The notes beneath the pieces were generated by a model. The model was not told the DNA's origin. It saw only the letters and a program-made list of their open reading frames with translations, and made no database searches. The translations under genes and the position numbers were made by a program. 11,905 nucleotides of DNA from an uncultured Micavibrio sp. (GTDB lineage: Bacteria; Pseudomonadota; Alphaproteobacteria; Micavibrionales; UBA1664), in contig CAJXOI010000009.1 in the NCBI GenBank assembly GCA_913057885.1, positions 1 through 11,905 on the forward strand. The letters run 5' to 3'. The first letter of the stretch is position 1. Each line of letters starts with the position of its first letter. Shown piece after piece: positions 974 through 7,147 of this stretch.

Positions 974-1002
974 GTTATAGGATATAATTCCTATAATGTC
1001 AA
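974..1002 (-). promoter_or_regulatory. Sigma-70 promoter for the capsid gene
   Basis: On the minus strand a perfect -35 TTGACA (997-1002) is followed by a 17-base spacer and the -10 hexamer TATAAC (974-979, five of six consensus bases). The -35 overlaps the stop codon of the glycosyltransferase gene. Transcription should begin near 967 and run through the terminator at 911-950 into the capsid gene, giving a leader of about 125 bases. It is the best sigma-70 match noticed in the window. Confidence 0.7.
975..996. promoter_or_regulatory. Palindromic operator within the capsid promoter
   Basis: A perfect 8-base inverted repeat, TTATAGGA-N6-TCCTATAA, fills the spacer between the -35 and -10 of the capsid promoter, where a bound protein would occlude RNA polymerase. 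The core AGGATATAATTCCT (979-992) matches AGGATTTTATTCCT at 7098-7111, upstream of the S24 repressor gene, in 12 of 14 positions. Binding by that repressor is inference. Confidence 0.65.
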
Positions 1003-1898
1003 GCGGTTTTTTGAAGTTTTTTTGTATGGTGGTTGTGACGGAATGACCCATCATACCGTGCATGGGTAAAAACACCCTGCCCTTGTAAAATTTTAAAACC
1101 ACCCTTCCGCCACCAAGGTCCATTAATGCATAATTCTGGTGCTTGAAAATTATTGGCCGATCGTGTCGAGGCCGGATGCGCGTCAACATATGCCATGAAA
1201 ACATCCAGCCATTTTCGACGATTAATCAACAAACACTGATCGGTAAAATCAAGAGCATTACTATCGATAATTAAAAAATTCCCCTCACGCTTTATAACAT
1301 CCGGATATATTTCTTCCGGCTTTTCTTCGATAAAAATACTACGCCCCTGAAACCTCTTTGCGTTATGAGGTTTAAGCATACGGCGAACATACTTTTTTAC
1401 GGGGCTGGGTTTTATAGACGGACTGCCATGCTCTGTGGGGATATAATTTGAAGATATATTTTGCACATCATAATATTTTAAATATTTTGCAACATCGGCA
1501 AAACCCTCACCAACCTGCCACCGATGTCGCATACGCGCCATATCGGCTTTTCCAGATTCCAATAGTGCCACTGTATCTTGAATATAACGCATGGCGAAAT
1601 CAGAATTTTCACAGAGCGGATTGTCATTTTGGAGGAGCAAAACATAATCCGTAGTCATATTTTGAGCCAGTTTTTTCATTCCTGAGGCAATGCCCTGGTT
1701 TGGTCCGCCCACATAATCCCAGTCATAATCCTTGGCGATCTTTTTATCGTCTTCGGATAGGTCCGAAAAATAAATCAGCCTTTCATCAAACATCGAGAGC
1801 AAATCTTCAGGATAGCTATCCAATGACTTTTTAAGCGTTTCATGCGCTTTCCATGATAAAATTCCAATACCGATTGTTTTCTTTGATTTTGCCGACAT
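999..1898 (-). CDS. Glycosyltransferase, GT-A / family 2-like
   Basis: This encodes 299 aa from the chosen ATG at 1898. The frame stays open for 45 codons upstream, but that extension runs into the divergent PilZ gene and is not protein-like, so MSAKSKK is taken as the start. The N-terminus (IGIGILSWKAHETLKKSLDSY, residues 9-28) is a typical GT2 nucleotide-binding strand-helix. NQGIASGMKKL (67-77) and YVLLLQNDNPL (85-95) follow; the last occupies the DxD position but reads N-D-N. The C-terminal part has GPWWRKGGF and a His-rich end. It probably transfers a sugar from a nucleotide sugar in the cytosol; donor and acceptor are unknown. It is divergent from the PilZ gene with a 21-bp gap and lies inside the phage head module, so it may be a lysogenic-conversion cargo gene that alters surface glycans. 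No convincing Shine-Dalgarno precedes the start. Confidence 0.72.
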   Translation of the reverse strand: MSAKSKKTIGIGILSWKAHETLKKSLDSYPEDLLSMFDERLIYFSDLSEDDKKIAKDYDWDYVGGPNQGIASGMKKLAQNMTTDYVLLLQNDNPLCENSDFAMRYIQDTVALLESGKADMARMRHRWQVGEGFADVAKYLKYYDVQNISSNYIPTEHGSPSIKPSPVKKYVRRMLKPHNAKRFQGRSIFIEEKPEEIYPDVIKREGNFLIIDSNALDFTDQCLLINRRKWLDVFMAYVDAHPASTRSANNFQAPELCINGPWWRKGGFKILQGQGVFTHARYDGSFRHNHHTKKLQKTA

Positions 1899-1919
1899 TT
1901 TTATGCTATAACCATAATT

Positions 1920-2273
1920 ATGAAATTTGACCAATACTATAATGGAAAAACCGTAAATGACAATGATGCGGGTCAGCGCCGTGCCCACCCGCGTCGTACA
2001 ATGGATGTGTGCATGGTGAATGTTGATGGGCACCCTTATCCCGTTCAGGATTGGTCACAAGGTGGTGTTTTGTTTGAATGTGATACACGCCCATACGAAG
2101 CCGGCCAAACGGTTAATATGATCCTCAGATTCAAAGTCGGTCAAGCCATTGAAGACATTAAAGTTACAGGCAACATCGTTCGTAAAAATGCCCATGCCGT
2201 TGCGGCGCAATTCACGCAACTTCCTCAAAACGCGATGCAGTCTTTTGAAAAGGTTATCATACAGTCCGCTTAG
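1920..2273 (+). CDS. PilZ-domain protein (likely c-di-GMP receptor)
   Basis: The product is 117 aa, essentially a single PilZ domain. Both halves of the c-di-GMP signature are visible: RxxxR as R21-A-H-P-R25 and [D/N]xSxxG as D44-W-S46-Q-G-G49. A beta-strand-rich remainder (GGVLFECDTRPYEAGQTVNM, then VTGNIVRKN) fits the PilZ barrel. Known relatives bind cyclic di-GMP and regulate motility, exopolysaccharide or cell-cycle targets. It is the only plus-strand gene within the minus-strand phage module. It may be leaderless: a TTGATT / TATAAC promoter with an 18-base spacer ends about 8 bases before the ATG and no Shine-Dalgarno is visible. The divergent neighbour is a glycosyltransferase, so a joint role in surface polysaccharide is conceivable but unproven. 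Confidence 0.85.
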   Translation: MKFDQYYNGKTVNDNDAGQRRAHPRRTMDVCMVNVDGHPYPVQDWSQGGVLFECDTRPYEAGQTVNMILRFKVGQAIEDIKVTGNIVRKNAHAVAAQFTQLPQNAMQSFEKVIIQSA

Positions 2274-2373
2274 ATTCATAGATTTTGTGAATAAGGCTCG
2301 CAATTAAAAGTGATGAGAGCACATGCATTATTTAGATAAACTAAACAATCACATATACACATTATAAACTTTT

Positions 2374-2586
2374 TCATTTTCGTTGCTTGATAGCTTTTAC
2401 TGTAGAAAATAAAATAAATGCAACAATCCCTATAGTTCCAATATCAAAGCCAATATAAAACCAATTTTCGTGGGATATATTTTCATTTATTTCATAAACA
2501 AACATGATGATTTCTAAAATCATAATCACTGCAAAAATTATTGCAGTGTAGTAAATTAGCCATAAAGGGACATGGTTTTTAAACAT
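2374..2586 (-). CDS. Small two-helix membrane protein
   Basis: The 70-aa product is unrecognised. It has two strongly hydrophobic segments, at about residues 8-30 and 43-63, joined by an acidic loop (YEINENISHENW) and ending in a basic tail (KAIKQRK). It is the last gene of a compact minus-strand operon: its ATG begins one base after the stop codon of the 67-aa gene, so translation is probably coupled. Base composition is visibly AT-rich compared with the phage structural genes on either side. Possible roles for such proteins in prophages include superinfection exclusion, toxin or toxin-antidote, but nothing here assigns one. Confidence 0.6.
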   Translation of the reverse strand: MFKNHVPLWLIYYTAIIFAVIMILEIIMFVYEINENISHENWFYIGFDIGTIGIVAFILFSTVKAIKQRK

Positions 2587-2587
2587 T

Positions 2588-2791
2588 CTATTTCTGTTTA
2601 TCCTTAAAGAAAATAAGATATAGCACCACTAAACTAATCCACAAAAACCATAACCCAAAATTAACCATTTTCATGATGGTTAAGAAATCAGCTGCTTCCA
2701 ACATACTAGTGTGCGATACAAAAATATAAATGAGATATCCCACACACAAAGTAAAAGCTATATAACAAAGAATAATCGCTATTTTATTCAT
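2588..2791 (-). CDS. Small two-helix membrane protein
   Basis: The 67-aa product is unrecognised. It has hydrophobic helices at about residues 4-25 and 42-63, a short loop (SHTSMLEAADFLTIMK) and a charged C-terminus (FFKDKQK). It overlaps the upstream 50-aa gene by 8 bases and is followed one base later by the 70-aa gene, which resembles it in size and topology (two helices, basic tail). These tight junctions support a real translated gene despite its size. Its AT-richness matches the rest of the five-gene cassette. Function is unknown. Confidence 0.6.
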   Translation of the reverse strand: MNKIAIILCYIAFTLCVGYLIYIFVSHTSMLEAADFLTIMKMVNFGLWFLWISLVVLYLIFFKDKQK

Positions 2792-2936
2792 TAAGTTCTT
2801 TTTTTCTTTGGGTAATCATATTTTCTAATCTATCACGTTCTTTTTTCAGATTGAATAATTTGATTTCATCAGATTTAAAGGCCTCACTTGATAAGCTATA
2901 TCCCATATTACCGCCAGTTATTGCAGATCCAAGCAT
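2784..2936 (-). CDS. Short coiled-coil protein, partial paralogue of the 122-aa protein
   Basis: This encodes 50 aa from an ATG at 2936 to a TAA at 2784-2786. It begins with a Gly-rich stretch (MLGSAITGGNMGYSLSS) followed by a charged amphipathic helix (LFNLKKERDRLENMITQRKK). The last 38 residues align without gaps to the C-terminus of the 122-aa protein at 3315-3683. Shared points are G-x-S-x-S, then LK-x-x-R, I-x-x-RK and a final L, 11 identities plus many conservative changes. The 5' end overlaps the 136-aa membrane gene by 29 bases, and an AAAAGG lies shortly before the ATG. Because the frame is open further upstream, it could also be the remnant of a longer gene. It may be a truncated duplicate retaining only the second coiled coil. 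Confidence 0.5.
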   Translation of the reverse strand: MLGSAITGGNMGYSLSSEAFKSDEIKLFNLKKERDRLENMITQRKKELNE

Positions 2937-3318
2937 AACACCTTTTCCCAAAAAATTTATAATAAAGAAGGGCTGTAGGCATTGGCGTAATACCGTGTAA
3001 AACCGTTATCCAATAACTATTCATGAGCAAGTTTTCTGGCTGTTTGTATGCCAACATGAAAGGAATAATTATAAATATAATTAGAAAAACCATTCTGTAT
3101 ATAATTGAACGTTTTTTTACCTCTACATAATAAAACCCGAAGAAAAGCCCGAACCATAAAATCATCCATATTTCGTAACTATTTGTGACTTGTTCAATAG
3201 TTTGATGATAGCCCGTCATTATCATTAAAATCATAAATAATGCGGGCAAAAGACTAGAAATTAAAAGAAATACTAAACTATCACATAAGAAATTGATGAT
3301 ATTTTTTTTTGCATTCAT
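2908..3318 (-). CDS. Four-helix membrane protein
   Basis: The 136-aa product is unrecognised. It has a short basic N-terminus (MNAKK), then hydrophobic segments near residues 12-35, 49-65, 72-91 and 100-120, and a basic C-terminus ending CNNWR. The positive-inside pattern (EVKKRS between helices 2 and 3, GKRC after helix 4) suggests an inner-membrane protein. Its ATG overlaps the stop of the upstream coiled-coil gene in an ATGA junction, so the two are likely made together. Its codon use is markedly AT-rich relative to the neighbouring scaffold and connector genes, consistent with acquired cargo. A partner role with the coiled-coil protein is inferred from coupling only. Confidence 0.65.
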   Translation of the reverse strand: MNAKKNIINFLCDSLVFLLISSLLPALFMILMIMTGYHQTIEQVTNSYEIWMILWFGLFFGFYYVEVKKRSIIYRMVFLIIFIIIPFMLAYKQPENLLMNSYWITVLHGITPMPTALLYYKFFGKRCYAWICNNWR

Positions 3319-3683
3319 TTCAATTTATCTTTTCTATCTTTTATCTGCTTTATGATATGTTCTCTGTCTCTTTTAAGCAATGCTATTTCAACCTGTAAAT
3401 TTTTTAAAAATGTTTCTGATATGCTATTACCTGTATCTGCGCCTTTAATACCCACAACCGGGGCGATATTCTTAATCGCACTAATAGATCGCCCAGCTGG
3501 ACTTAAAGATAAAAACCCTAATAAGCCTGAGGCTGCCCCTCCAACTATACCCGCAGGACGCACTTTAGAAGATACAAATTTTAACTCATCTTCTTTGTAT
3601 TGAATTTCATATTCAATTTCCTTCAATTGTATTTCCAATTGGTCAATATCAAATTGAATTGATTGTCGTTTTTGTTCATCCAT
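3315..3683 (-). CDS. Coiled-coil protein with central glycine-rich hydrophobic segment
   Basis: The 122-aa product is unrecognised. Residues about 8-40 form an acidic amphipathic helix with heptad spacing (IDQLEIQLKEIEYEIQ). Residues 44-78 are rich in Gly, Ala and Ser (VGGAASGLLGFLSLSPAG) and could insert into or lie on a membrane. Residues 88-122 form a second, basic coiled coil (LQVEIALLKRDREHIIKQIK). A helix-glycine segment-helix layout of this kind is seen in hairpin, pore or tape-like proteins, but no family is claimed. An AAGGAT site precedes the ATG, immediately after the scaffold terminator. It is the first of five genes running to 2374. The C-terminal part is repeated, diverged, in the 50-aa protein two genes downstream. 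Confidence 0.65.
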   Translation of the reverse strand: MDEQKRQSIQFDIDQLEIQLKEIEYEIQYKEDELKFVSSKVRPAGIVGGAASGLLGFLSLSPAGRSISAIKNIAPVVGIKGADTGNSISETFLKNLQVEIALLKRDREHIIKQIKDRKDKLK

Positions 3684-3702
3684 TTTTGATCCTTAAAGTA
3701 AA

Positions 3703-3722
3703 CTCCCCGTAAAAACGGGGAG
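3703..3722 (-). terminator. Intrinsic terminator after the scaffold gene
   Basis: A perfect 8-bp stem, CTCCCCGT and ACGGGGAG around a four-base loop, lies 8 bases past the scaffold stop codon. Read on the minus strand it is followed by TTTACTTTAA. The T-run is broken, so termination may be partial, which could let some transcription reach the small-gene operon whose Shine-Dalgarno follows at once. Confidence 0.75.
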
Positions 3723-3730
3723 CAAAGATA

Positions 3731-4444
3731 TTATTCACCATACAGGTTTTTAAATCCGTCCGTGACCTTGGCAATATAGGATGGATCTTTGTCGCGCCAA
3801 TATTTCGGGTCATTCATCATGGAATGCAGGTCTTTTTCCGCGTTTGACGAAACGGATTTCGTCTGCCCCCCAAGTGTTTGCGGCTCTTCGGATTGCATCA
3901 TTTTATAGAGAGCAATAATCCCCTCATAAGAAGAGCTCATACCCTCTAAAACTTGAGGCGGCAGATTTTTTTGACCAAAGACAAGCATTTGACGTGAGGC
4001 CTCGCGCCATTGGTCTTGGCCACCGAAATACTCCATCAGGCGCTCGACCTCTCGATCGGCCTGAAATTCGGCGGCCATCTCCATAATCATTGGCACCATC
4101 TTTTCAACGGCCAAATCATAAACTTCTTGCACTTGTTCACCATTAAACCCTTTGGCATGAAGGCGTTTGTTCAAATCCGCATCCGGTTCAAACAAATTAT
4201 CACGCACGGATACCTTATATTCATCGGCCGAGGCAGGAACACCAGCCGCACGTAAAAACCGTGCACGTGTTTCGTCATCTTCGGGTTGAGGGATGGATGA
4301 CGACAATTTTTTCTCTAACTCAGCATATGATTTCAAAAGTGCATCAATACGAACTTCCCCAGTTTCAGCATTCCAGAATTTATCTGGCACGCCCTCTGGT
4401 TTTTGCGCAGTTTCATTGAGTAGGTTTTTGTCCTGAGTGGTCAT
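3731..4444 (-). CDS. Phage capsid assembly scaffolding protein
   Basis: The 237-aa product is a largely helical, acidic protein with the family's usual opening (EGVPDKFWNAETGEVRIDAL, about residues 17-36), followed by KSYAELEKKL. The C-terminal end has a short basic/aromatic tail (KDPSYIAKVTDGFKNLYGE), consistent with scaffold proteins that bind coat protein through their C-terminus. In T7-like phages the equivalent guides procapsid assembly and is then released. The start overlaps the connector stop in an ATGA junction and has a strong AAGGAGA site, so connector and scaffold are translated together. The gene position between connector and capsid fits, except for the inserted segment that follows. 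Assignment rests on sequence style plus gene order. Confidence 0.8.
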   Translation of the reverse strand: MTTQDKNLLNETAQKPEGVPDKFWNAETGEVRIDALLKSYAELEKKLSSSIPQPEDDETRARFLRAAGVPASADEYKVSVRDNLFEPDADLNKRLHAKGFNGEQVQEVYDLAVEKMVPMIMEMAAEFQADREVERLMEYFGGQDQWREASRQMLVFGQKNLPPQVLEGMSSSYEGIIALYKMMQSEEPQTLGGQTKSVSSNAEKDLHSMMNDPKYWRDKDPSYIAKVTDGFKNLYGE

Positions 4445-5937
4445 GATTGATCTCCTTGGTTTGGTTCTATGGTTTCAGGGTTTGATAAGATTATTTCTTC
4501 ACGGATCAGGTCACTGGGTACGCCCAGTGCCTGTCCAAGATGACGTATTGCGGCAGGTAAGTTGACGGCGGTTGCCGCCTCGGGTCCCATCGCCAGGGCA
4601 GAGTTGATCCAATAAAGTGTGTTTTGAATATTATTTTGTCGTTGCCCCAACGCAAGCGGGGAGCGGTAATCCAATGTGACCAACCGGCCATCAATATCAA
4701 TGTCGGGCACCTCGCCACGGCGGCGCAATATTCCGTATGCGCGCTGAATAAGCGGGGTCAGCAACTCTGACTGTAGCCGCCCGTATGTTGCACCCAATAG
4801 CAATGCCATTTCTGCGGATCTTTCCAAAACCTCGGTCGCGGTCATTTGGCGTTGACCGATCATGCCCAGACGATCCACCAACAAAGCATGACGTATACGG
4901 GACCGCAGATCCTCCAAAACAATTTGGGAAACATCAAAATTAGACGGCATCTCAAGCGGGGTTAATCCCTTTGACCCCACGGCCTTTGGAATAATGCTTC
5001 CTGGTGTCAGTTCAATATTTTCAAGATTGATGACACCATCGTCATCCGCCTGCCAAACACCACTCACGGCAATAGAGGCGTTTTTTAAAATCAATTCCAC
5101 GACCTTGTTTGCCGTTTTGATATCAGGCAGGGATTTCATAACGGGGGATCGCCCATAGATTTCACCTGGGGACTTCATCCAACGAAAGGCAATAAAAGGC
5201 GATTGTGCATATTGACCAGTCGCCAACAATAACGGCTCAGTCATATCCTCGGTTAAAAACGCAGCATAATCATAAGTAAGACCGTTTGGTGTAACCGTTT
5301 CCAATACAGCAAAGGATGCATTGGAATCCTTGACACCTCGTTCAATAACTTTTGAAGGCAAGTCAATATCCGCAAATCGATCTTGCATTTCCTGCAATGT
5401 CATACTGACCTCGCGATAAACAGTGTCTAGTCGCCCTGTCCGACGCCCCTCCTCCAATGCAATTGTTGATAATGGAATTGCTTTAAACCGAAAGGCCGAA
5501 TAATCACCCGGCTGGGATTCTTCAAATAATAATATTGCGGTTCCGCCAACGATCACATCCAAAAACGCCTGATGCATTTCCGTTGTAAAATTGGATTTAT
5601 CCAAATGGGATTGAAGCAATCGTGCCGCCTTTTCCAATGCAGGGGCCAGTAACTCTGAATCTTGTTTCGGCATATCTGGCCCTGGCGTTAAACCAAACCA
5701 TTGAGACCATGGTGGAGTTAAATTGCCCAATAGGCTGGCCGCTAATTGCTCGACAGAGTCCATGGCCGTGCCGTCATAGATATCTGCGGTTCTGTTGCGC
5801 CCACCGGAAAAACCGTCATAGCTTTCCTGCTGTGGCAACGCATATTGGTAACATTCCTTCCAAAGGGCTTCCCAACTATTTCGGCGTGATTTCGCCGCAT
5901 CATATCCGCTCATTATTTCATTGTGTATTTGTGTCAT
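4441..5937 (-). CDS. Phage head-tail connector (portal) protein
   Basis: The 498-aa product fits the 'bacteriophage head to tail connecting protein' family, the T7 gp8-type portal, which forms the dodecameric ring for DNA entry and tail attachment. Typical N-terminal features are present: an aromatic helix (WEALWKECYQYALPQQ, residues 22-37), IYDGTAMDSVEQLAASLLGNLTPP (about 53-76) and the WSQWFGL motif. Its length matches the family. The C-terminal third holds SRIRHALLVDRLGM and MTATEVLERSAEM, characteristic of these connectors. The ATG at 5937 has a GGGAGA site, and the stop of the upstream 87-aa gene lies 2 bases before it. A terminase large subunit would normally lie just upstream, but none is present in this window. 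The gene appears intact. Confidence 0.92.
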   Translation of the reverse strand: MTQIHNEIMSGYDAAKSRRNSWEALWKECYQYALPQQESYDGFSGGRNRTADIYDGTAMDSVEQLAASLLGNLTPPWSQWFGLTPGPDMPKQDSELLAPALEKAARLLQSHLDKSNFTTEMHQAFLDVIVGGTAILLFEESQPGDYSAFRFKAIPLSTIALEEGRRTGRLDTVYREVSMTLQEMQDRFADIDLPSKVIERGVKDSNASFAVLETVTPNGLTYDYAAFLTEDMTEPLLLATGQYAQSPFIAFRWMKSPGEIYGRSPVMKSLPDIKTANKVVELILKNASIAVSGVWQADDDGVINLENIELTPGSIIPKAVGSKGLTPLEMPSNFDVSQIVLEDLRSRIRHALLVDRLGMIGQRQMTATEVLERSAEMALLLGATYGRLQSELLTPLIQRAYGILRRRGEVPDIDIDGRLVTLDYRSPLALGQRQNNIQNTLYWINSALAMGPEAATAVNLPAAIRHLGQALGVPSDLIREEIILSNPETIEPNQGDQS

Positions 5938-5939
5938 CC

Positions 5940-6203
5940 TTATTCTCCCAACAGGTTTTTGCGTTTTGGCGTTAATGTGCTTTGGTCAGTCAACACACCA
6001 CGATACGATGTTTGAATGGTCGAATTGCGCCCTCTTGCTGTGCGACGGATAACATCCTCTACCTTTGCAACATCTTCATCACTTTGCTGCGTACTTTTAC
6101 CGCTTTGCTTTGGTGGTTCTGATATTTTTGATGGCGCGGCCCGAGGGACAGAATAACTCATTGGCCGATATGATGGGGTGGAGTAGGTAAACAAAGATCC
6201 CAT
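5940..6203 (-). CDS. Small protein of the phage head operon
   Basis: The 87-aa product is unrecognised. The N-terminal half is low-complexity and Pro/Ser/Lys-rich (YSTPSYRPMSYSVPRAAPSK). The second half carries a charged helix (DEDVAKVEDVIRRTARGRNS) and a final LTPKRKNLLGE. A clear AAGGAT Shine-Dalgarno precedes the start, and the stop lies 2 bases from the connector start, so it is co-translated with it. Short proteins at this position in podovirus-type prophages are often uncharacterised head or connector accessories. It was chosen as real because of its operon fit and ribosome site, not because of homology. Confidence 0.6.
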   Translation of the reverse strand: MGSLFTYSTPSYRPMSYSVPRAAPSKISEPPKQSGKSTQQSDEDVAKVEDVIRRTARGRNSTIQTSYRGVLTDQSTLTPKRKNLLGE

Positions 6204-6205
6204 AA

Positions 6206-6628
6206 TTATGATCCTTTCTTATTGTGCGTTTTTTGTAAAAATTTATAGAGCTGATATGGCGTCAAAATCGTCATATGATGAAGCCCAATGATGCGTTTCA
6301 GTGTTGCAATACATGTCACGGGAAACGGTGATAAAATTCGATTCGGGGTTTTGATAGAGGGGACTTTAACAACCGTCATACCTTGATTGGCATAATATCG
6401 AGGTAAATTAAAATCGCGCGGATGGGGCAACAAACATATATCGGTCTTGTTCGCCCGTGGATCTACCAATATCCATCGTCCGTCTTGTTGCATAATCATA
6501 AAGCAATGACGAAACCCCCTGCGCAATATTTTTAGAATGCGAATATCCGTTTTATCGGAAAAAACAACCCATGTGACCTGATCGGCCTGTAAATCAATTT
6601 CTGGGGACAATGTCGGACGATTTACCAT
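6206..6628 (-). CDS. Conserved protein with permuted papain-like Cys/His pattern
   Basis: The 140-aa product looks like a family I remember from alphaproteobacteria next to phage-type genes, without an established function. Visible elements in order are a WVVFSD strand (20-25), LRRGFRHCFMIM with H41, WILVDPR with D56, PVTCIATLKRIIGL with C106, and a closing TPYQLYKFLQ helix (123-132). His followed by Asp and then a late Cys at the head of a helix is the order expected of circularly permuted NlpC/P60 or papain-like folds, which act as peptidases, amidases or thioesterases. Catalysis is inference. In a phage module it could be a maturation peptidase or a cell-wall enzyme. It overlaps the upstream gene by 7 bases and has a GGAGG site 10 bases before its ATG. 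Confidence 0.62.
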   Translation of the reverse strand: MVNRPTLSPEIDLQADQVTWVVFSDKTDIRILKILRRGFRHCFMIMQQDGRWILVDPRANKTDICLLPHPRDFNLPRYYANQGMTVVKVPSIKTPNRILSPFPVTCIATLKRIIGLHHMTILTPYQLYKFLQKTHNKKGS

Positions 6629-7014
6629 GAGCGTGCAACCTCCGCCCTTGATTGAAAATCGATAATTTGCGCTGATGGCATGGAATAAACAATGCCCTTG
6701 GCTATCAAAACCTCGGTCAGGATACCCATTGCCTCATCCCATAAACGGGATGACAAAACTTCCTTCACCCTTGTGGGGTCAGGGGCAATCATGCGTTGAC
6801 CATAATGACGCAACACACGGAAATGATTCATATCCAAGCGGCGATGACGGCGTAAACGTTCGCATACTTTCAAAATATCCGATGGCTCACACGGGCGCTT
6901 ATATAATCCCTCATTGGCGCGAATCCTTGCACCGTCTTGCCGTGCGTCATAAGACGCCATAAACCAAAACCACGCCTCTTCGGCCGTATCAAACAATGTC
7001 ACCTCATCAGCCAT
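6622..7014 (-). CDS. Conserved alphaproteobacterial hypothetical, first gene of the head operon
   Basis: The 130-aa helical protein begins FDTAEEAWFWFMASYDARQ (residues 8-26) and contains RPCEPSDILKVCERLRRHRRLDMNHF (about 40-65), then HYGQRMIAPDP. I recall close relatives across Rhodospirillales-like genomes, always as hypothetical proteins, usually paired with the Cys/His protein that follows here. The many Arg residues and helical character would suit a nucleic-acid binder, and the position first in a head operon is where a small terminase could lie, but neither is shown. An AAGGG site lies just before the ATG at 7014. The gene is transcribed from the LexA-box promoter at 7059-7087, so it is likely induced by DNA damage. 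Confidence 0.65.
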   Translation of the reverse strand: MADEVTLFDTAEEAWFWFMASYDARQDGARIRANEGLYKRPCEPSDILKVCERLRRHRRLDMNHFRVLRHYGQRMIAPDPTRVKEVLSSRLWDEAMGILTEVLIAKGIVYSMPSAQIIDFQSRAEVARSW

Positions 7015-7031
7015 CTTTTTCCCTTTCTTTT

Positions 7032-7057
7032 GTTCTATTTATGTTCTATATTTGTTC
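7032..7057. promoter_or_regulatory. Two overlapping LexA-type boxes (three GTTC half-sites)
   Basis: GTTC occurs at 7032-7035, 7043-7046 and 7054-7057, giving GTTC-N7-GTTC-N7-GTTC with exact 11-bp periodicity, so half-sites fall on one helix face. GTTC-N7-GTTC is the established LexA site of Alphaproteobacteria. The array covers the predicted start of the minus-strand head operon. The host LexA or the adjacent S24 repressor could bind it. Confidence 0.72.
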
Positions 7058-7058
7058 T

Positions 7059-7087
7059 AATAAAACATGGAACGTATATGCTGTCAA
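7059..7087 (-). promoter_or_regulatory. Promoter of the phage head operon
   Basis: On the minus strand a perfect TTGACA (7082-7087) is followed by a 17-base spacer and TTTATT (7059-7064; four of six -10 bases). The predicted start near 7052 lies inside the GTTC repeats, so a repressor bound there would block initiation. The leader to the ATG at 7014 is about 40 bases. Confidence 0.55.
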
Positions 7088-7097
7088 TCATTATTTT

Positions 7098-7111
7098 AGG
7101 ATTTTATTCCT
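7098..7111. promoter_or_regulatory. Second copy of the AGGA-N6-TCCT operator
   Basis: AGGATTTTATTCCT is an inverted repeat of AGGA/TCCT around six A/T bases. It shares 12 of 14 bases with the core at 979-992 in the capsid promoter. It sits 10 bases upstream of the -35 of the head-operon promoter and directly before the candidate -35 of the S24 gene, a position suited to controlling either. Confidence 0.6.
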
Positions 7112-7112
7112 G

Positions 7113-7141
7113 TTTACACGCGGGGGAGCCCGTGGGACAAT
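7113..7141 (+). promoter_or_regulatory. Candidate promoter of the S24 repressor, possibly leaderless
   Basis: TTTACA (7113-7118), a 17-base spacer and GACAAT (7136-7141) give a modest sigma-70 match whose start would fall at or near the ATG at 7148. No well-spaced Shine-Dalgarno exists, so a leaderless transcript like that of lambda cI from PRM is plausible. A GGAC-AATA-GTCC dyad (7135-7146) overlaps the -10. Confidence 0.35.
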
Positions 7142-7147
7142 AGTCCT

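Follow-up and report, generated by a model that had tools for sequence, protein, structure and literature searches.

The 11,905-nucleotide stretch of Micavibrio DNA analysed here, referred to throughout as the window, contains a phage-type major capsid gene and, well apart from it, a head operon transcribed divergently from a gene for an S24-family repressor. As judged from their recurrence in related loci, the matched inverted repeats (dyads) of the form AGGA-N6-TCCT found at the relevant promoters are a real and conserved control switch of this phage-derived particle cluster, and not a product of chance. The favoured interpretation, to which a probability of approximately 0.78 is assigned, is that these dyads would serve as operators of the adjacent repressor, a protein resembling both RogA and lambda CI, that LexA would act as a second lock, and that the genes so controlled would form a largely vertically inherited virion cluster akin to a gene transfer agent (GTA). 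Binding, cleavage and induction, together with the functioning of any resultant particles, are predictions made for both switch and module from sequence.

Three dyads were located in the window (Table 1): site C in the capsid promoter, O1 between the head operon and the repressor gene, and O2 at the start of the repressor gene itself. Examination of C and O1, which are identical at 12 of 14 bases and differ at two, confirmed the preliminary description of this DNA with respect to their coordinates, the location of the former in the spacer of a consensus-like promoter, and that of the latter between two divergent promoters beside the S24 gene. Its contention that such a pair is hard to explain by chance was likewise borne out, in that exact AGGA-N6-TCCT occurs twice in the window compared with 0.05 times per dinucleotide shuffle (none of 300 shuffles gave two), and exact AGGATNTNATTCCT twice compared with zero in such shuffles; a looser search allowing two mismatches was unremarkable (three matches versus 1.29 expected, with 28 of 200 shuffles giving three). 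The picture so described was incomplete, both O2 and a LexA-type box at the head operon having been missed. The repressor promoter, for which similar sequence was recognised by eye in relatives, is predicted to give a leaderless mRNA with transcription starting at the ATG. Throughout the window's own assembly AGGA-N6-TCCT gave 18 matches versus six for the reversed pattern, and the full palindrome TAGGA-N6-TCCTA three versus none for the control, one of the three being the capsid promoter.

Conservation was assessed with a position matrix built from 19 exact capsid-promoter sites only, applied at a threshold of more than 11 bits to a 'Micavibrio group', a working grouping adopted for this study and not a taxonomic unit (the window plus loci L122-L176 minus L158, L160, L161, L168, L169 and L171, and including one contig, L165, titled Rhodospirillaceae). 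Within this group 29 of 32 loci had a matrix site (O1 or O2) in the 150 bp preceding the repressor gene, the chance expectation being 0.0015 per locus (16 matches in 1,359,497 other positions of these loci), and 32 of 33 had one in the 400 bp preceding the head operon, with L143 and L154 left out of the head-operon counts by reason of their short upstream sequence. The corresponding figure for the capsid promoter was 33 of 49, L124 and L199 having been left out of that scan; the 19 training sites count towards this last figure, and neither of the other two counts shares any training site. Furthermore, TTGAY, which formed no part of the matrix training, directly preceded the capsid site at a fixed offset in 31 of the 33.

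The sites also remained with their presumptive genes where the layout was disrupted. Repressor genes lying apart from the head operon keep an O2-like GGGA-N6-TCCT (exact in L110 and L138, with a single mismatch in L117), O1 in such cases stays with the head operon, and the head operon keeps a matrix site in four of five loci in which the repressor gene is either absent or more than 1 kb away. Inspection by eye of repressor upstream sequences (29 of the 30 fetched loci L036-L065 used, L047 left out, and 28 located) revealed a recurrent layout in most of the 28, consisting successively of a GTTC box, TGTCAA, a TAGGA..TCCTA-like dyad, TTTAC, a GGGA..TCCT-like dyad and ATG. Linkage of repressor and head genes extends beyond the order, portal or other head-operon homologues lying beside the repressor gene in nine of 23 class-level loci.

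A composite of promoter and operator (TTGAC-N4-TAGGA-N6-TCCTA, with no more than one mismatch) was then sought in 55 genomes and found in 29, the reversed control giving four matches in all. Of the 29 genomes that have a close capsid gene, 27 contained the composite, compared with two of the 26 others, the latter including four genomes with a capsid of 41-43% identity (G009, G021, G033 and G047); in G028, one of these two carriers, a terminase piece lies 126 bases from the site. For 21 genomes out of the 29 a match sits at the capsid promoter itself, these positions and the 29/26 split having been read by hand from the capsid and composite listings. A chance pairing of motifs was consequently ruled out by the shuffle counts, the matrix scan and the tracking of the module by the composite across genomes taken together. 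Conservation of the motif at matching promoters of related modules had been set beforehand as a test of the preliminary description, and was found at all three promoters at the frequencies given above. The question of whether the motif is scattered genome-wide was on the whole also answered in favour of that description, the composite tracking the module, though it also matches nine times in the window's own genome (G000). The proposal of a dedicated operator through which the S24 protein, or another regulator, coordinates the head genes is thus supported by conservation, but the term 'dedicated' is too strong, since the presence of the composite at other promoters points to a regulon wider than the module.

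The repressor encoded in the window retains A100-G101, S141 and K178 in alignment, and because these residues are present the protein should, on sequence grounds, be able to cleave itself. The best fold matches of a structural model (mean pLDDT 75, pTM 0.44) were lambda repressor and LexA; the overall TM-scores, 0.40-0.49 among the three best, are low because the linker was poorly predicted. Of 144 genomes sampled from the class, 39 contained full-length homologues (E < 1e-50). The helix-turn-helix (HTH) domain is joined in frame to orotate phosphoribosyltransferase (PyrE), which replaces S24, in ten named-contig loci of the Micavibrio group (L132, L133, L134, L140, L147, L149, L151, L152, L153 and L175), an assignment supported by alignment, by a match to a solved structure of that enzyme (1.7e-75, one locus) and by a model with a pLDDT of 84. 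HTH-PyrE proteins of 303-313 residues were found in nine genomes of family f4, which overlap the ten loci and in which Pfam was checked on one protein; all ten named loci have a capsid-promoter site above 11 bits. Another eight loci, some of them bearing gut-sample titles, have an HTH-only gene of 81-82 residues approximately 3.5 kb upstream of the capsid gene, and no matching capsid site was found in these eight.

The box form known for alphaproteobacterial LexA served as the starting point for interpretation of the GTTC array, and was tested at the lexA promoters of relatives. GTTC-N7-GTTC was present there in four of the five genomes with a lexA match (six searched), the match in one of the four, G004, lying in a 74-residue frame; lexA was not found in the window's own genome, which is incomplete. 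Because the same box precedes lexA in relatives and the Y-family polymerase gene in the window's own genome, it is most likely the LexA box of this group. In the window the array lies just downstream of the predicted head-operon -10, around the predicted transcription start, and 27 of 33 loci have a GTTC box in the 400 bp preceding the head operon; the group's putative LexA box, the mark by which membership of the LexA regulon was judged, is thus found at the head operon. No such box was found within 300 bp upstream of the capsid gene in any of 79 loci. Genome-wide GTTC-N7-GTTC is not enriched in G000 (20 matches versus 29 for the control), so that its meaning rests on its position. Contig C104, which also carries a GTTC box, was considered as a part of the phage module and rejected, its recognisable genes being TrbI-like and proline dehydrogenase genes.

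The module itself is best regarded not as a mobile prophage but as a podovirus-type virion cluster passed on largely by vertical descent, and most likely as a GTA-like element. In relatives the cluster continues with genes for tail proteins, a tail-spike-like protein, a T7-like terminase large subunit and a cell-wall hydrolase, and with a holin-like gene; in the window's own genome the terminase gene is cut by the end of contig C66. Among the 55 genomes, with distant homologues counted, portal was found in 35, capsid in 33 and terminase in 30, each as a single copy save for split pieces in G002, G011, G039 and G045, and the module was represented in four families by portal (f1, f2, f4 and f5) and in a fifth (f7) by terminase. 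In G004, G010, G016 and G046, which represent four genera, the same host genes flank the cluster on either side, a few additional genes being interspersed; inspection by eye between these flanks revealed no integrase or replication gene, not every open reading frame having been searched. The sporadic occurrence, variable insertion sites and integrase that characterise a temperate prophage were accordingly not encountered, the flanks being the same in four genera, the genes single copy apart from split pieces, and no integrase having been recognised by eye.

Portal distance correlated with that of the neighbouring host genes nadK and pyrE combined (r = 0.79, 23 loci; nadK versus pyrE 0.63), and the virion and host-gene trees had 11 of 20 splits in common compared with 0.22 expected, although nadK and pyrE are linked to the module and this agreement is therefore also compatible with joint transfer. 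The dN/dS ratios for pairs of portal, capsid and scaffold genes (0.008-0.13, many of the dS values being saturated) were like those of pyrE and nadK. One mark of a GTA, the transmission of genes for virion, packaging and lysis along with the host, was thus found, with four of the 14 supported splits of the virion tree in conflict with the host-gene tree.

Apart from these conflicting splits, a number of observations weigh against the favoured interpretation. No site above 11 bits was detected upstream of 16 of 49 capsid genes, three of 32 repressor genes and one of 33 head operons, and outside the Micavibrio group a site was present at only one of 14 repressor genes and three of eight head operons. 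Exact elements are fewer than the layout described above might suggest (AGGA-N6-TCCT in eight, and the GTTC box in 21, of the 28 repressor upstream sequences), and class-wide conservation of the exact operator was rejected as weak, GGA-N6-TCC being found in four of 23 repressor upstream sequences (0.77 expected; 23 located of 28 loci). The composite occurs at other promoters, with 26 matches in G019 and 19 in G001 besides the nine in G000, and several of the extra copies belong to repeat families without an obvious gene. The GTTC box is missing at six of 33 head operons, and the cleavage residues are lost in the repressors of several relatives, so that self-cleavage would not be general. Repressors without these residues include those of G046 and G053, presumed to be Micavibrio strains, in which damage by itself may free only the operon under LexA control. 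Damage to the virion genes themselves was also evident: the portal gene is broken in G010 and G002, the terminase gene is split in G039 and G045, in-frame stops were recorded in the terminase matches of G001, G002 and G004, one stop was flagged in the capsid matches of G011, G038, G046 and G053, and the capsid match of G006 extends to only 87 residues.

Such damage would fit a module that is a prophage in decay or otherwise defective, and not a functioning particle system, even though its operators are real, a reading also favoured by the failure to recognise replication or integration genes by eye in the clusters read, by the results for G005 (no portal match above 27% identity, no capsid and no terminase) and by those for G028 (only the terminase piece). 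Purifying selection approximately as strong as that on pyrE and nadK, within the limits set by saturated dS values, the presence of the module in as many as five families, and its retention in the same place in four genera with the control region kept along, all argue against decay, which is accordingly considered unlikely, while deserving to be kept in mind.

The extra copies of the composite bear upon two other explanations. Were the dyad bound by a different, genome-wide regulator for which the S24 gene was merely one target, composites at other loci would be anticipated, including those before small genes such as the Phd-like gene and the neighbour of a dxs-like gene described below; tracking of the module by the composite, and retention of an O2-like site by the repressor gene in the three loci that separate it from the head genes, point instead to the repressor. 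Autoregulation is the usual pattern for CI-like genes. The available account of Caulobacter RogA, which binds DNA containing the same dyad (PMC9632790), also favours the adjacent protein, and a different regulator appears distinctly improbable. That the dyad is simply a favoured spacer of strong promoters, or a dispersed repeat, with no protein bound is more improbable still: in G019, G001 and G000 the composite does in part belong to multi-copy promoter-like repeats, but O1 lies outside any spacer, upstream of the head-operon -35, and yet is equally well kept, the composite is rare in genomes without a close capsid gene, and the composites examined, in a search confined to tRNAs among stable RNAs, had none of these within 400 bp downstream.

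On the favoured interpretation of the dyads as operators of the S24 repressor, a repressor dimer on site C would block the capsid promoter, and probably with it the whole capsid-tail-terminase-lysis transcription unit; on O1 it would block the head operon, and on O1 and O2 it would limit its own synthesis. The separate GTTC-N7 boxes would add control of the head operon by LexA. Damage to DNA would then release the module by a two-key route, the first key being RecA-stimulated cleavage of LexA and the second, where the S24 active site is intact as it is here, RecA-stimulated cleavage of the repressor itself. With operators, repressor and LexA-type box all readable from the sequence, the induction of a podovirus-type cluster becomes directly testable.

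Table 1. Predicted genes and control elements of the window, with positions in nucleotides and the evidence for each
Feature	Position	Strand	Evidence or remarks
Major capsid protein, 276 residues	12-842	minus	PF19821 6.7e-83; phrog_3437 major head protein
Predicted capsid promoter	974-1002	minus	-35 TTGACA 1002-997, 17-bp spacer, -10 TATAAC 979-974
Operator C, AGGATATAATTCCT	979-992	no strand	fills capsid promoter spacer; extended palindrome TAGGA-N6-TCCTA at 978-993
Scaffold / T7-type capsid assembly protein, 237 residues	3731-4444	minus	PF05396 1.3e-9
Portal (head-to-tail connector), 498 residues	4441-5937	minus	PF12236 1.3e-139; phrog_332
Small head-operon protein, 87 residues	5940-6203	minus	phrog_831 3.7e-5
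Conserved head-operon protein, 140 residues	6206-6628	minus	no family matched; in 44 of 81 loci including the window
First head-operon gene, 130 residues	6622-7014	minus	no family matched; in 43 of 81 loci including the window
GTTC-N7-GTTC-N7-GTTC array	7032-7057	no strand	two overlapping LexA-type boxes
Predicted head-operon promoter	7059-7087	minus	-35 TTGACA 7087-7082, 17-bp spacer, -10 TTTATT 7064-7059
Operator O1, AGGATTTTATTCCT	7098-7111	no strand	between divergent -35 boxes of head operon and S24 repressor
Predicted repressor promoter	7113-7141	plus	-35 TTTACA 7113-7118, 17-bp spacer, -10 GACAAT
Operator O2, GGGACAATAGTCCT	7134-7147	no strand	third dyad; covers repressor -10, ends at repressor ATG
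S24-family repressor (HTH + S24), 218 residues	7148-7804	plus	PF00717 2.6e-27; HTH_26 20.9 bits (cut-off 22)

Between the scaffold and capsid genes, at positions 999-3683 of the window, lie a gene that by eye resembles a glycosyltransferase, although Pfam gave no match for it, as well as a PilZ gene and a number of small unassigned ones. PilZ recurs in 43 of 81 loci, and the first gene in only three, the window included.

A number of composite and palindromic sites elsewhere in the genomes were also recorded. Multi-copy, promoter-like intergenic composites, several of them with common downstream repeats, are clearest in G019 (L307-L318) and were also found in G001 (L327-L334) and G000 (L296-L303). 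A tRNA promoter was rejected as the identity of the composite, no tRNA being found within 400 bp downstream of the sites in 50 loci, in which three tRNA genes occur elsewhere. A leaderless, fast-evolving gene of 111-176 residues with the operator in its promoter occupies the same place in three genera (G010, G022 and G045; L343:2186-2713, L321:2226-2558 and L326:2320-2703), between dxs-like and HAD/sppA-like genes, and a homologue adjoins a composite site in G019. Its identity as a known phage protein was rejected, no PHROGs family having been matched and Pfam giving only a weak, implausible match for one of the four. A small Phd/YefM-like gene (a weak match, checked on L305 alone) lies downstream of the composite in G000, G001 and G004 (L301, L305 and L330), that is, in the genus of the window, and a perfect TAGGA-N6-TCCTA lies between two divergent genes at C1:538-553 of G000, one of which, by eye, presumably encodes a penicillin-binding protein. 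The gene names dxs and sppA, as well as folD and isocitrate dehydrogenase, are presumptive.

Among named phages, HTVC010P-type pelagiphages and their kin were the closest within the best 25 matches each for capsid (30-48% identity) and portal (31-36%); these are free phages. Bacterial contigs gave capsid identities of 61-90% in the best 80 of 269 matches. A related portal-scaffold-capsid cluster is present on a 5-kb human-faecal scaffold catalogued as phage (MT838907.1, L267), which is closer than the pelagiphages, with capsid and portal identities of 61.5% and 50.9% respectively.

GTAs investigated in depth are described as few and mostly from alphaproteobacteria (PMC12946183). Like RcGTA and BaGTA, the present module has virion genes inherited with alphaproteobacterial hosts, but the capsid protein of BaGTA is of the HK97 type, and the formally classified GTAs are, in the available description, of other types (PMC9662315). 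The module described here, which is known from its genes alone, differs from both in having a Phage_capsid_2 capsid, a T7-type portal and scaffold, and a T7-like terminase. The capsid of RcGTA is likewise of the HK97 type. The nearest parallel in form is FpGTA of Faecalibacterium, a podovirus-like GTA-like element with its genes also in two operons, reported in 2026 as the first of its morphology (PMC12946183); unlike the present case, the host there is not an alphaproteobacterium, and particles and packaged DNA were studied, compared with genes only here.

With regard to control, the repressor resembles lambda CI and LexA in the fold matches of its model, in its Ala-Gly, Ser and Lys residues and in an operator placed over its own promoter; unlike them it is linked to a host-fixed virion cluster, and part of the group has lost its S24 domain or carries PyrE in its place. 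Were the fusion with PyrE to repress in the manner of a phage protein, it would offer a striking example of an enzyme from central metabolism in that role. Other links between GTAs and host regulation have been recorded, XRE proteins controlling the Caulobacter GTA activators (PMC10688885) and quorum sensing, CtrA and SOS being associated with GTAs in Dinoroseobacter (PMC6473078), so far as the available texts describe them.

The closest regulatory counterpart is RogA (CCNA_00080) of Caulobacter crescentus, a LexA-like repressor of the GTA activators gafYZ, which in the available account bound fragments of the gafYZ promoter region, where two GGAA-N4-TTCC repeats are found, and has homologues in Rhodospirillales and other alphaproteobacterial orders (PMC9632790). 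Like RogA (213 residues), the 218-residue window repressor consists of an HTH and an S24-like domain, has phage-derived particle genes as its predicted targets, and is associated with the same dyad, GGA-N6-TCC (GGAA-N4-TTCC), at target promoters which in the present case are predicted from sequence alone. It differs in that the sites lie directly on the head and capsid promoters, those of RogA being on an activator gene, in that the S24 active-site residues reported there as absent are present (PMC9632790), and in that the module is podovirus-type and not RcGTA-type. It is possible, at rather less than even odds, that these loci represent a further alphaproteobacterial lineage of podovirus-type GTAs, extending over Micavibrio-like bacteria and some Rhodospirillales, with a two-key switch composed of a RogA-like protein and LexA, in some members of which replacement of the damage-sensing S24 domain by the pyrimidine enzyme PyrE may wire particle production to nucleotide state, and that the RogA of RcGTA-type systems may descend from the repressor of such an element, a likeness which would suggest a possible origin for a known GTA repressor.

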